DNA from: an uncultured Actinomycetes bacterium
GTDB taxonomy: Bacteria; Actinomycetota; Acidimicrobiia; Acidimicrobiales; SZUA-35
NCBI GenBank assembly: GCA_902826025.1
Contig: CADEDH010000005.1
Coordinates: forward strand, 75,607-139,606
Direction of reading: 5' to 3'
DNA: 64,000 nucleotides
This document shows positions 34,080 to 39,100 of the stretch, in pieces. How positions within the stretch are numbered: position 1 is the first letter of the stretch; each line of letters starts with the position of its first letter. The notes beneath the pieces are model-generated. The model ran no database searches, was not told where the DNA came from, and worked only from the letters and a program-made list of their open reading frames with translations. Both the position numbers and the translations under genes were made by a program.

Positions 34080-34775
34080 TCACACGTCCAAGCGGTGGTA
34101 GACCCAGCCCTCGGTGTGCATGACGAGGCGGTGGCGGGGGCCGTCGGCCTCGGCCGGGCCACCTCCGTAGGCCACGTCGCCGAACCAGGCCACGGTGCGG
34201 GGCTCCTTACCAATGGGTCGGGTGCGGAACAGCTCCGGCTCCCGGCTCCGGGCCCAGGCCATGGCCTCGGCCACGGTCGAGTGGGCCTCCAGCTCGTGGA
34301 GGGTGACCCAGGTGGGAGGCACGAGCTCGATCTCACCGGCGTCCCGTCGGGCCTTGGCCTCCGAGGGGGCGATCCAGACATGGTCGTGGATCTCGTCGCC
34401 GTCGATGGCCACGTCGCCGTCGGGGGCGTGGGTGACGAAGAACCAGGTGGAAAAACGGCGGACGGGGCCGCGGCCGCCGGTGGTCATCTGGGGGGCGGCC
34501 GGCGGCACCCAGTGCGACCAGGTCTCCATGGCGTCGGGGGCGATCACGAGGCCGCATTCCTCCTCGGCCTCCCGCACTGCGGCCCGGCGGGCCGAGGCCA
34601 GGCTGTCGCCGGGGACGATCTCGTGGTCGTCCACCCGTCCGCCGGGAAAGACCCACATCCCGCCGAACGGCCCCTCGTTGTTGCGGCGTAGCATCAGCAC
34701 CTCGAGCCCGCCGGGGGTGTCGCGCAGGACCACCACGGTGGCGGCCGGGGTGAGGTCGTCGTCGTCTTCGATCAC
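34080..34775 (-). CDS. NUDIX hydrolase
   Basis: A 231-residue NUDIX protein. The box is present but stretched: GGRVDDHEI, then an insertion, then RRAAVREAEEECGLVI; the metal-binding REAEEE core is intact. It hydrolyses a nucleoside diphosphate linked to another group, exact substrate unknown; the long, split box is like NUDT19/RNA-capping type members. GTG at 34775 is supported by a TACGTT box 6 nt upstream; the frame is open to a TTG at 34811. It is divergent from the structured leader of the next gene. Confidence 0.85.
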   Translation of the reverse strand: MIEDDDDLTPAATVVVLRDTPGGLEVLMLRRNNEGPFGGMWVFPGGRVDDHEIVPGDSLASARRAAVREAEEECGLVIAPDAMETWSHWVPPAAPQMTTGGRGPVRRFSTWFFVTHAPDGDVAIDGDEIHDHVWIAPSEAKARRDAGEIELVPPTWVTLHELEAHSTVAEAMAWARSREPELFRTRPIGKEPRTVAWFGDVAYGGGPAEADGPRHRLVMHTEGWVYHRLDV

Positions 34776-34781
34776 GGGGCC

Positions 34782-34787
34782 AACGTA
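34782..34787 (-). promoter_or_regulatory. Leaderless -10 box of the NUDIX gene
   Basis: TACGTT on the minus strand ends 6 nt before the GTG at 34775. Confidence 0.45.
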
Positions 34788-34820
34788 CGGGGCCGGACGG
34801 GCCGGCGCCAAAGCGTCCTT

Positions 34821-34913
34821 GATGGGTAGAGCGGAAGCCGCCAGGGCAAGCAGCGCCCGGAGGCGCTGGGTTGCTGTGCGTTGGAGGAGGAGCGGCTCCC
34901 GCTGCTACCCATC
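34821..34913 (+). ncRNA. Candidate structured RNA element with a 20-bp interrupted stem
   Basis: GATGGGTAG (34821-34829) pairs with CTACCCATC (34905-34913), AGCGG (34830-34834) with CCGCT (34899-34903), and AGCCGC (34836-34841) with GCGGCT (34892-34897). A single bulged G and one mismatch are the only breaks. Inside, CAGCGCC and GGCGCTG close a CGGA tetraloop, flanked by GCAA/TTGC. The strand is assigned from the downstream gene but a palindromic arm cannot tell strands apart. I compared it with tRNA, SRP RNA and RNase P and saw none of their marks. Confidence 0.45.
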
Positions 34914-34917
34914 GACT

Positions 34918-34940
34918 CCGGTGAGGGTGATGATCACCGG
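34918..34940 (+). other. Second leader hairpin
   Basis: CCGGTGA and TCACCGG form a 7-bp perfect stem with a 9-nt loop, directly after the 93-nt element. A weaker GCCCC/GGGG hairpin follows at about 34977-34992 in the same leader. Confidence 0.4.
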
Positions 34941-35034
34941 CGTGAGTACCATCGACAGCTGACCGCGTGTCCTTGAGCCCCAATCCGGGGTCGGCCTGTC
35001 CCTCCTGAACTGATCCGAACCTGAGGAGCCAGCC

Positions 35035-35235
35035 ATGCTGGGAGACAACTTCCTCGCCTACCTCACTCTGGCCCTGGGGGCGGCCCTCGCCCTCGGCACC
35101 GGCCTCGCCCTGGCCAAGCCGCAGGTCGACGAGGCCACCGGTGAGACGATGAAGGCCCCGGTCGGCCGCTCGCTGATCCAGATCACGATCGGCACCATCG
35201 CCGCCGTGTGGGGCCTGGCCACGCTGCTCAGCTAG
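35035..35235 (+). CDS. Small membrane protein of unknown function
   Basis: A 66-residue protein with two hydrophobic segments (FLAYLTLALGAALALGTGLALA and SLIQITIGTIAAVWGLATLL) joined by a charged loop with KPQVDEATGETMKAPVGR. A GAGGAG ribosome site precedes the ATG. It has no recognised family. It is preceded by about 220 bp of strongly folded leader and is convergent with dnaB, with 13 bp between their stops. Confidence 0.65.
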   Translation: MLGDNFLAYLTLALGAALALGTGLALAKPQVDEATGETMKAPVGRSLIQITIGTIAAVWGLATLLS

Positions 35236-35248
35236 AACTCATGGTCAG

Positions 35249-38200
35249 CTAGAACTCGTCGGGTCCCCCGCCCTTGGGCGGCGCCGTGCGGGCCATGTTG
35301 TCGAACCGGGTGTACTGACCCCGGAAGGCGAGCCGGACCCGGCCGGTGGGGCCGTTACGGTGCTTGGCCACGATCACCTCGGCCACCCCCTTGTCGGGCG
35401 AGGCCTCGTCGTACACCTCGTCCCGATACAGGAACAACACGACGTCAGCATCCTGCTCAAGACTGTTGTGAGCGATGATCCCGTTGGCGACGAAGTTGTG
35501 AGGCCCGGGCACCGTCAGGTCGAAGGTCTCCTCCTCGCCCGCCGGTTCGATCGAGACGATCTCATCCCAGTAGATGTCAGATGTCGCCACGGCAACCAAT
35601 CGCGGAGAGTCGGTGAGCCGACCCATCCGCTCCAGCCGCTCCCTCGAGAACCGTCGCTGCCGAGTATGGCTACCAAGCGAGTAGGAACCGCAATACTGCT
35701 CCCCGAGGCCCGCCGCCAACTGACGATGCGAGAGTCCGGTGGTGACCATGGCGTCCTTCACCTGGGCCGCAATCGGCAATGGCACCAGGTCATTGTTCGG
35801 ATTGCCCTTCACCTGCTCGAGGATCGTGCGTGCCTCAGGCACGAGATCTCCCCGTGCGCCGTGACATCCCACCAGATCGAGAAAGGCCAGTTGGTTGCCG
35901 GCCCCCTGGACCCTCACGTGATAGCTCACCGGGTAGTGGCTGCCATCTGGCCTGCTCTTCAGCGTCCTGCCGATCGCCGTTCGGATTCCCAAACGGCCGA
36001 GCGCGTGCTGCACATCATCGGCCAGCCGACCGCTGTTGGTGGCGTAGTAGCAGCGGACGGGGGGACCGGCCGCCCGCCGGTTGATGGAGAGCGAGCCGTC
36101 CGTTGCCCATAGGTGGTGCAGGAAATGGGCGAGGTCGGCGTTCGGCTGTGAGAACACCGACGGAGGGATGAACTTGGTGCCCGACCGGCTGAGCCAGAGG
36201 CCGTGAGGCTCGAGCCACGTCCTGACAGGGTGATACCTGCCGTGGGTAAGTCGGTATGGACATGGGAGCCACATCTGGGTGGTGCCGTTGTAGACCGGAG
36301 CCTGCGCCTGGATACCGAACAAGGATCGGGCCGTTGCGGCGACATAGTCCCGGTTCGCTGGGTCGATCGTCGCATACTTGACTCCCGATCCGATCGTGCG
36401 GTCGCCGATCAAGTGGGCAAGGAGGCCAAGCTGGTCGCGAGACCACACAGCTTCACCGAGGATGGGTTCAGGCAAGATCCGCGGGGTGGCCAGGTACTCC
36501 CCCACCGGCAGCTCATCGAGCCGCTTCCAGCCCTCGATCGTAAGAAACCTGTGATTGGCCGTGGCCTCAACCTGCCGACCGGATGCCAAACGGAGCCGGA
36601 ACACAGGTTTGACTCCGGTGCTGAAGACTCGGGAGACCTGCGCCGGAACGACCCGCTGCCTGTCATCCAGAGCCCAGACGACCGGTAGGTCGCCGGATTC
36701 CATCAGGCTGTCAATCGTGGCCTCCCGACCAGTGTCGGCCCTGAGAATCCTGGTCGAACCCGTGAGACATCCACTCTCCCTGAGGTCCGACAGCATGGGC
36801 CGCTTGTCGGTGCGCTGTTCCAGCGAGCGGTTGAGCTGGGCCAGGGCGATAACCGGCGCTTCCAGCTCACGGGCCAGGATCTTCAGGTTCCGGGAGATCT
36901 CGGACACCTCGACCTGGCGGCTCTCGGCGTTGGACCGGCCGCTCATCAGCTGGATGTAGTCGATCACGATCATCCCCAGGTCGCCCTCCCGGCTCTTGAG
37001 CCGGCGGGCCTTGGCCCGGATGTCCATGATCGAGGTGTGGGGATTGTCGTCGATGTAGATCGGGGCCTCGGCCAGGCGACCCACAGCGTGGGAGATACGG
37101 GTCCACTCCGCCTCCTCCAGCCGGCCGGTCTTCACCTTGCCCGAATCGACCAGTGCCTCCGAGCACAGCAGACGCTGGGAGAGCTCGAGCTGACTCATCT
37201 CCAGGGTGAAGATGAGAACCGGCTTGCGGTCCTTCATGGCCGAGTTGCACGCCATCCCCAGCGCGAATGCGGTGTTGTGGGTGGCGATCATCTCCCGACC
37301 CGCCAGGTACAGATGAGACGGCGAGTCCACCGTGATGCACTGCGTCGGCACCGACGGCACCGGTCGGGCATCAACGATCGTTCGCCACCGAGGCGTGCTA
37401 TTGGGCCGATCGACCACGCGCTGCGCTTCGGCCTTGCGACGGAGACGGAACACCGGCACGTAGGCCGAGAAGTTCATGGTCCACACGTCAGTGCCGTAGT
37501 TCGAGCGCTTGTGTTTCAAGGGACCGGCCTTGATGCCAAGCGACAGCGCCAGCTCACGCACCTGCTCGATAAGAACACGGTGCGGCAGCGCGATCTGGCA
37601 GGTGGTCTGTCCCTTCACCACGCAGCCATCGGTGTCCATCAACCCCTGCAGCAGGGCAAGTCGCTGCTTCTCCGACGCCCGGAGGTAGGAGCCCGGAATG
37701 TGTTTGCTCACCGTGCCGGGTTCGCCGTTGGGCCGGGAAGCCCACAGCCCGATGTCTCGCAGCACCCTGGTGAAGCGCAGCATCGGCCGACCGCCGACCT
37801 GCACAACAGCAAGCCGGCTTTCATCGTCCAGGGCATGGTGGATCACGTAGGTCGTGGCCCGCCCGGCGGGTTGCGCTTCGACGAGCGTCCAACCGTCAGC
37901 CTCGAAGGCGGCCACGATCTCGCGGTCCATGGTGGTGATCTGCGGGCTGCCGGTGTGACCGTCTCCGAGCCACAGGCCCAGCAGGTACGGATCCAGCGGC
38001 AACTCGGCCTCAGGCAGATCGAGGGGGCCTGCCACCTCGATGCGATGGTTCGGACGCTGATCGTTGCCCACCCGGAGCGAGGCCGCGATCTCGCGGGTCG
38101 ACCGCACAGCCGGCCATGTGCGCTTGCGGGTCTGGTCCCGGGCGTACCGGGGATTGGGCACCGGCCCCCGGGCAGCGCGGGCCTCGGCCTCACGCTTCGA

Positions 38201-39100
38201 CTTCCATGCCCGGTGGTCCCATGTCTCCCACAGGTGGTCGGCGTCGGCGACGATGGTGGAGCCGTCGTCGAAGACGACCTCGTAGCAGTCGTGGCCCTCG
38301 AAGACCGGGCTCTTGTACGTCACCGTGCACGGGGTGCCCCGCTCGTCGAACACCTCGTCGCCCGCCCGGACCTCGCCCATGGTGGTCCAGCCGTCGGGCG
38401 TCGCCAGTGGGGTGTCGAGCGCTAGGGCCTTCCCCATGGCGGGGCGGGCGCCGATGACGTACAGCGCGTTGGGTTGGAGGCCGGCGAGCTTCTCGTCGAG
38501 ATCGAGGTAGCCGCTGCTCATACCGGTGATGGCTTCGCCCCGGTCGTACAGCATCTCGATCCGGTCCAGGTTGGCCGGTAGCAGGTCACGGATGGCGGCC
38601 GTGGTGTTCGTGACCCTGCGCTGGGCCACGTCGAACATCTTGGCCTCGGCGTCGTCGACGGCCTGAAGCACGTCCTCGGGAACGCTGTAGGCCATCTCGG
38701 CGATCTCGTTGGACACCGAGATCATCCGCCGGAGCAGGGCGTGCTCCTCCACGATCTTGGCGTAGTGGTGGGCGTTGGAGATGGCCGGCGTGGTGGCCTG
38801 GAAGTCGAGCAGCACGGCCGGACCGCCGACCTCGTCGAGCATGCCGGCCCGCTTGAGCTCGTCGGCCACGGTGACGGCATCGACCGGCTCGCCGCTGGAG
38901 TAGAGGCTCAGGATCGCCTCGTACAGGTGACCGTGGGCCGGCTTGTAGAAGTGCTCCGGCTCCAGGATCTCCACGACCTCGGCGATCGCCTCCCGGCTGA
39001 GCAGCATCGCGCCCAGCACCGACTCCTCGGCCCGCAGGCTGTTCGGAGGGACACGGGCCAGAGGAGACGGGCGGGGAGAGCCATCAGGCATGCGGTTCAT
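35249..39100 (-). CDS. dnaB: Replicative DNA helicase DnaB with two inteins
   Basis: A 1283-residue precursor. Three exteins (residues 1-224, 610-777 and 1213-1283) add up to 463 residues, the normal size of DnaB. The N-terminal domain begins PNSLRAEESVLGAMLLSREA; the RecA-like domain has Walker A ARPAMGK-T split by intein 1, Walker B GMIVIDYIQLM, and the DLRESG-SLEQDADVVLF region split by intein 2. After splicing it would be the hexameric fork helicase. ATG at 39100 follows AGGACAGG. It closes the rpsF-ssb-rpsR-rplI cluster on the same strand, separated from rplI by 210 bp of repeat-rich DNA. Confidence 0.95.
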   Translation of the reverse strand: MNRMPDGSPRPSPLARVPPNSLRAEESVLGAMLLSREAIAEVVEILEPEHFYKPAHGHLYEAILSLYSSGEPVDAVTVADELKRAGMLDEVGGPAVLLDFQATTPAISNAHHYAKIVEEHALLRRMISVSNEIAEMAYSVPEDVLQAVDDAEAKMFDVAQRRVTNTTAAIRDLLPANLDRIEMLYDRGEAITGMSSGYLDLDEKLAGLQPNALYVIGARPAMGKALALDTPLATPDGWTTMGEVRAGDEVFDERGTPCTVTYKSPVFEGHDCYEVVFDDGSTIVADADHLWETWDHRAWKSKREAEARAARGPVPNPRYARDQTRKRTWPAVRSTREIAASLRVGNDQRPNHRIEVAGPLDLPEAELPLDPYLLGLWLGDGHTGSPQITTMDREIVAAFEADGWTLVEAQPAGRATTYVIHHALDDESRLAVVQVGGRPMLRFTRVLRDIGLWASRPNGEPGTVSKHIPGSYLRASEKQRLALLQGLMDTDGCVVKGQTTCQIALPHRVLIEQVRELALSLGIKAGPLKHKRSNYGTDVWTMNFSAYVPVFRLRRKAEAQRVVDRPNSTPRWRTIVDARPVPSVPTQCITVDSPSHLYLAGREMIATHNTAFALGMACNSAMKDRKPVLIFTLEMSQLELSQRLLCSEALVDSGKVKTGRLEEAEWTRISHAVGRLAEAPIYIDDNPHTSIMDIRAKARRLKSREGDLGMIVIDYIQLMSGRSNAESRQVEVSEISRNLKILARELEAPVIALAQLNRSLEQRTDKRPMLSDLRESGCLTGSTRILRADTGREATIDSLMESGDLPVVWALDDRQRVVPAQVSRVFSTGVKPVFRLRLASGRQVEATANHRFLTIEGWKRLDELPVGEYLATPRILPEPILGEAVWSRDQLGLLAHLIGDRTIGSGVKYATIDPANRDYVAATARSLFGIQAQAPVYNGTTQMWLPCPYRLTHGRYHPVRTWLEPHGLWLSRSGTKFIPPSVFSQPNADLAHFLHHLWATDGSLSINRRAAGPPVRCYYATNSGRLADDVQHALGRLGIRTAIGRTLKSRPDGSHYPVSYHVRVQGAGNQLAFLDLVGCHGARGDLVPEARTILEQVKGNPNNDLVPLPIAAQVKDAMVTTGLSHRQLAAGLGEQYCGSYSLGSHTRQRRFSRERLERMGRLTDSPRLVAVATSDIYWDEIVSIEPAGEEETFDLTVPGPHNFVANGIIAHNSLEQDADVVLFLYRDEVYDEASPDKGVAEVIVAKHRNGPTGRVRLAFRGQYTRFDNMARTAPPKGGGPDEF
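35465..36769 (-). other. DnaB intein 2 (class 1, 435 aa, LAGLIDADG)
   Basis: Residues 778-1212. It begins with Cys1 (CLTGSTRIL), has the block B TANHRFL with T-x-x-H, block F TFDLTVPGPHNFVANGI, and ends in AHN followed by Ser+1. These fit a standard class 1 mechanism. A LAGLIDADG endonuclease lies between: LLAHLIGDRT and HHLWATDGS carry the two acidic residues. It is inserted in RESG-SLEQDAD, the known intein site shared by cyanobacterial DnaB. GC content is visibly lower than in the exteins, as expected of an acquired element. Confidence 0.93.
37274..38428 (-). other. DnaB intein 1 (P-loop, class 3 features, 385 aa, LAGLIDADG)
   Basis: Residues 225-609, inserted between Lys and Thr of the Walker A motif (ARPAMGK-T). 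It starts with Ala (ALALDTPLATPDGW), not Cys or Ser. It carries the W-C-T set reported for class 3 inteins: Trp two after the block B His (DADHLWETW, intein residue 67), Cys in block F (PTQCITVDSP, residue 364) and Thr before the terminal His-Asn (ATHN, residue 383), with Thr+1. The LAGLIDADG endonuclease motifs LLGLWLGDG and LLQGLMDTDG keep both aspartates. As it splits the ATP site, no helicase activity is possible before splicing. Confidence 0.93.

Follow-up and report, generated by a model that had tools for sequence, protein, structure and literature searches.

The window, a 64,000-nucleotide stretch of an uncultured Acidimicrobiales genome, appears to carry on its minus strand the gene of a small structured RNA. 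Comparison among relatives indicates a conserved RNA of ~125 nt, found once per genome, in which a 5′ hairpin is followed by a long stem that encloses a C-rich internal loop and an inner hairpin. The base pairing makes sense only on the minus strand, and the strand, the structure and the autonomy of the gene are well supported by these sequence comparisons. We consider it reasonably probable that this is a stand-alone regulatory sRNA gene with its own promoter, whose product would act in trans through its C-rich strand on Shine–Dalgarno regions. The original prediction, which read the element on the plus strand, had offered a small RNA as one of three options; this is the right kind of element, but it is read from the minus strand.

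The gene is placed at positions 34818..34942 (minus strand) by a match to our minus-strand covariance model R2 at G000:C5:110415-110552, minus (E 4.3e-10, E-values of both our models being rough), and by its fold (z −7.9, a value that does not by itself settle the strand). The 5′ end would lie at ~34942 ± 3 (minus), as judged from promoter-like boxes, and the 3′ end probably at ~34818 or slightly beyond (minus). First comes the 5′ hairpin CCGGUG-AUCAUCACCCU-CACCGG (34918..34940, minus), with a conserved (A)UCRCCC in its loop; 98.3% of its cells are paired and 4 of its 6 pairs show changes on both sides in the 69-sequence alignment. The long main stem P1/P2 is formed by a 5′ strand at 34891..34913 (minus) and a 3′ strand at 34821..34842 (minus), the latter defined by pairing and covariation; its 13-bp core is 97.2% paired, with double changes in 12/13 pairs. 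Between these strands lie the mostly unpaired C-rich strand GCUCCUCCUCCAACGCACAGC (consensus ACUCCCUCCACACGCAUCGCC; 34873..34893, minus), a putative mRNA-pairing site, and the inner hairpin P3, CAGCGCC-UCCG-GGCGCUG (34851..34868, minus), which is 92.2% paired, has double changes in all 8 pairs and is among the top covarying pairs. The strong fold originally noted for 34821-34914, whose nested arms are long and enclose an inner GC-rich stem-loop, held up even on the plus strand (−59 kcal/mol, z −5.4), where 0/200 dinucleotide shuffles were as stable. Two further hairpins had been proposed beyond it: CCGGTG...CACCGG at 34918-34940 is real and conserved, but the region after 34945 has no conserved structure and holds promoter-like boxes instead. 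The element is present as a single copy in its own genome.

The check originally named, covariation in relatives, was passed very strongly. On the minus strand, the R2 alignment of 69 sequences supports 30 pairs, 27 of them changed on both sides, with 93.4% of cells paired. The covariation score was 0.569, against 0.263 ± 0.008 for shuffled and ≤0.139 for slid controls and 0.400 for the plus strand, and on each of the five measures 0 of 500 shuffles reached the observed value. Compensatory changes are thus found in most helices, above both controls, as in a structured RNA family, and all of the 15 strongest column pairs by APC-corrected covariation lie inside proposed helices or are direct extensions of the outer stem. 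In a MAFFT alignment made without fitting to the structure, minus-strand pairing of the 13-bp stem held at most positions in 58–61 of 61 sequences; on the plus strand, 82.6% of its cells are paired. The plus-strand reading of the 69-sequence alignment also gave helix double changes far above shuffled and slid controls.

The strand is distinguished by the type of non-canonical pair. Among helix cells read on the plus strand, A·C or C·A occurs 216 times versus 33 for G·U or U·G, and because A·C on the plus strand equals G·U on the minus strand, we read the RNA from the minus strand. The stem originally drawn is real as long nested pairing but was assigned to the wrong strand, and its mismatches partly vanish when A·C becomes G·U. 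The RNAalifold consensus energy is −86.2 kcal/mol on the minus versus −74.1 kcal/mol on the plus strand; the single-sequence minimum free energy is lower on the minus strand by only 1.35 kcal/mol on average (41/69 sequences). Since a stable inverted repeat folds on the plus strand too and this energy gap is small, the strand call rests on the wobble asymmetry together with the promoter-like boxes. A practical point follows: whether G·U or A·C predominates in covarying helices can flip the strand of a folded-element call. The length of the main region modulo 3 is spread 22/19/28 over the 69 sequences, which argues against coding, and a short ORF through an AUG on the plus strand was ruled out by 1–2 nt indels that the conserved loop carries among relatives and because the window has lost this AUG. 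A pseudoknot between CAUCG and the loop CGAUG (plus reading) was also rejected; it has no covariation support, and CAUCG corresponds to the −10-like box on the minus strand.

The occurrence of the element was followed with two covariance models, R1, built from 25 sequences, and R2, for which the promoter region was left out of the build, over a genome set that includes many incomplete MAGs, so that absences are soft. R1 placed the element in 36/39 genomes of the source family and, at a rough E<1e-10, in 42/248 genomes of the order, spread over some 20 families; carriers thus make up about one sixth of the sampled Acidimicrobiales species. R2 recovered the same 42/248 genomes, with one copy each, and at class level matched 15/296 genomes, all belonging to the same order. 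Outside Acidimicrobiales only weak matches were found (R1 scores of ~25 bits, R2 scores of at most 14 bits), which we did not accept, and a search of viral contigs gave no exact match. The named relatives are mostly Acidimicrobiales MAGs. In most family genomes, reading the plus strand upstream of the gene for a 66-aa membrane protein, the order is the same: the long stem, the inner hairpin, a nearly invariant GGCGATGCGTGTGGAGGGAG, the hairpin CCGGTG...CACCGG, then CATCG and CTTGAG.

Upstream of the first hairpin on the minus strand lie CTCAAG, a ~15-nt unconserved spacer, GCCGAT or a variant, and then about 10–14 nt. In the window, the −35-like box CTCAAG occupies 34972..34977 (minus), its distance being fixed in relatives, and the −10-like box GTCGAT (consensus GCCGAT), conserved in relatives and 15 nt past CTCAAG, occupies 34951..34956 (minus). 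The distance from CTCAAG to CG[A/T][T/A] is identical in 52/66 sequences and 1 nt shorter in 9/66; the boxes are rich in information, unlike the spacer, and CTCAAG is preceded by an A-rich tract and followed by TTT, giving the box consensus TCAAG(TTT)-N12-GCCGAT. Because conserved boxes flank a variable spacer of constant length, we read them as a probable promoter rather than an RNA helix. The flagellar/WhiG consensus has a −35 of TAAA and a −10 of GCCGATAA (PMC8325347). The boxes of the RNA come near to this consensus, known from the WhiG/RsiG sigma-28 regulon of Streptomyces and Rubrobacter, and WhiG-family sigmas are present here; the difference is a −35 of TCAA instead of TAAA, one base off, and the −10 rarely ends in AA. 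Strong FliA/WhiG sigma matches were found in 40/42 RNA-positive versus 100/206 RNA-negative genomes (Fisher p 2.5e-9, without phylogenetic correction), and three of four Acidimicrobiales species are reported to have the twin-motif anti-sigma RsiG (PMC8325347). The RNA is therefore likely to have its own promoter, sigma-28-like of the FliA/WhiG type in most lineages, and we infer that control by WhiG is likely because the boxes resemble the consensus, the sigma family occurs in 40/42 carriers and RsiG is reported in the order. A genome-wide motif scan gave ~1.5 exact matches per genome, against a reversed-pattern control that is probably biased by codon content; with so few exact copies, a sigma-28 regulon is not demonstrable from genome-wide motif copies. 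Part of one family (f19; loci L090, L095 and L103) carries at the promoter position, in place of CTCAAG/GCCGAT, boxes that we read as nearer to sigma-70, for example TTGGCA-N17-GATAAT in L103, so that the RNA may have changed its sigma class there.

The best-conserved unpaired strand of the RNA is CUCCCUCCACACGCAUCGCC. The CUCCCUCC part of the consensus has a mean unpaired probability of 0.89, with CCUCC kept in 65/69 and CUCC in 68/69 sequences. In the window copy the right half of the conserved loop is altered: the CAUCGCC half is lost, CUCCUCC is kept and CUCCUCCUCC is retained. AUCRCC is repeated in the loop of the 5′ hairpin. By analogy with other C-rich RNAs, a strand of this kind could block the ribosome-binding sites of mRNAs. 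Staphylococcus aureus RNAIII carries unpaired C-rich motifs complementary to Shine–Dalgarno sequences. The likeness to such RNAIII-type anti-Shine–Dalgarno motifs (PMC2837412) is that of a C-rich unpaired stretch set against Shine–Dalgarno sequences, a general mechanism only, RNAIII being an unrelated RNA without homology to ours. Mycobacterial B11 represses a target through either of two C-rich loops, for which a G tract in the 5′ UTR is a possible pairing partner (PMC10470900). Like B11/6C RNA (RF01066), the present RNA is an actinobacterial stand-alone sRNA exposing C-rich sequence, but it differs in fold and sequence, with CUCCCUCC in an internal loop where B11/6C place their C runs in two hairpin loops; the RF01066 model matched neither the window at its gathering score nor any of 11 relatives at E≤1.

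We favor a trans-acting translational repressor because such a strand can pair with Shine–Dalgarno sequences and because B11 represses through similar loops. The RNA would be transcribed from its own, probably sigma-28-like promoter; the exposed CUCCCUCC strand, perhaps with the repeated AUCGCC loops, would pair in trans with the G-rich Shine–Dalgarno regions of mRNAs, and this pairing may lower translation of the bound mRNAs, as mycobacterial C-rich-loop sRNAs do. A search of the order turned up no extended complementary target: a 17-mer complement with one mismatch allowed finds the RNA genes and scattered unrelated matches, so any mRNA pairing would use short seeds.

The main rival to mRNA pairing is that the same minus-strand stand-alone RNA binds a protein, either RNA polymerase, in the manner of 6S/Ms1, or an RNA-binding regulator, a reading we hold to be rather unlikely. 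A long near-perfect stem, an asymmetric conserved loop and the single copy would suit such a role, and the conserved loop, at ~20 nt, exceeds a bare anti-Shine–Dalgarno seed. The long stem with its central unpaired region and the single copy are also the features shared with 6S and 6S-like actinobacterial RNAs; however, the separate 5′-terminal hairpin is extra here and the conserved loop sequence is unrelated to 6S. Moreover, the window loses the CAUCGCC half of the loop yet keeps CUCCUCC, which pairing with mRNA fits better. The 6S model (RF00013) found no canonical 6S RNA above cut-off in the 39 family genomes, a point in favor of protein binding, but it matched just 5/14 control genomes, hence the absence of 6S says little. 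For want of an above-cut-off match, the identity of our RNA with 6S RNA itself was rejected. In one family genome a 6S match scored below threshold (L145, G031:C154:2439-2555; 30.2 bits against a cut-off of 46.4, E 3e-4), possibly a divergent 6S RNA of the order.

A different kind of explanation ties the element to a neighboring gene. As a 5′ leader or attenuator it would regulate the gene downstream on the minus strand, in the window a NUDIX hydrolase ORF (34811..34080, minus) that follows closely past the RNA, but we regard this as improbable, since most relatives have the NUDIX stretch 700–1000 nt off, on the other side, or not seen within 1.5 kb, and the gene closest to the RNA is often convergent with it. 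U-tailed terminators are few, at 5/69 loci versus 1.0 expected, and structure is stronger on the 3′ side of the RNA (mean z −0.87) than in an upstream control (mean z 0.07; p 3e-5). In one locus (L007, 2870-2990), just past the RNA, lie two near-identical copies of CAGCCAATTTCGTCAG(C/T)TGGCGTCTTTCCATTCCTTCG, each a hairpin with a pyrimidine-rich tail, perhaps a duplicated terminator.

On the other side of the RNA lies the gene of the 66-aa two-helix membrane protein (35035..35235, plus), a conserved neighbor that is divergent from the RNA in this genome. The protein is without Pfam or NCBIfam matches; it is present in 37/39 family genomes and occurs in other families too, near dnaB and the RNA. 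A copy with 55% identity, Acidimicrobiales-like, was also seen in a record titled as a Bifidobacterium breve MAG, which is probably mislabelled or contaminated. In the window, the dnaB gene itself (35249-39100, minus) encodes a replicative helicase of 1283 aa with Pfam Intein_splicing, two LAGLIDADG_3 stretches and one Hom_end match, consistent with two inteins.

The original prediction had leaned on this neighbor in proposing a riboswitch-like cis leader of the membrane protein on the plus strand. This was the reading that we pursued first: the protein gene stands divergently beside the RNA in 58/69 loci, starting 2–260 nt past the element on the plus strand, which folds well. It was dropped after the gene order in genus g11 and the wobble asymmetry (216:33 against the plus strand) became clear, and it now seems very improbable. 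In g11 the membrane-protein gene is convergent with the RNA, upstream of it or 2 kb away; it is displaced in three further genomes (G053, G041 and G137), gene order varies in families f3, f6 and f18, and in L007 the gene lies downstream of the RNA in the same direction. Seven genomes of several lineages, plus L007, have the two genes apart or in another relative orientation. At the rearranged loci the promoter-like boxes remain with the RNA, more weakly in G137, and the conserved CTTGAG is retained even where it is not followed by such a protein gene. The RNA is not a leader of the 66-aa protein, because it lies on the opposite strand, is divergently transcribed and is separable from that gene, and its gene order is independent of any one flanking gene, as expected for a stand-alone sRNA. 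A mobile palindrome or REP-like DNA element, also proposed at the outset, has next to no probability, since the inverted repeat occurs in one copy per genome in a fixed neighborhood and its covarying helices are broken by a conserved unpaired strand.

The statement that no common RNA class fits was borne out, as Rfam 15 gave no match on either strand of the window, and likewise none in 11 relatives. The kind of RNA is known, a structured, stand-alone, C-rich sRNA, but the family appears new; our literature searches found neither an sRNA study of Acidimicrobiales nor an sRNA member of the WhiG/RsiG regulon. The covariance models R1 and R2 can be used to annotate it. We raise, as a tentative and rather doubtful extension, that the RNA might be an order-specific RNA arm of the c-di-GMP-controlled RsiG–WhiG switch, in which a fall in c-di-GMP would free WhiG, the RNA would be transcribed and its anti-Shine–Dalgarno loop would silence a set of mRNAs. 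Acidimicrobiales are widespread yet poorly studied, and a conserved RNA of well-defined structure with a probable alternative-sigma promoter offers an entry point to their regulation.
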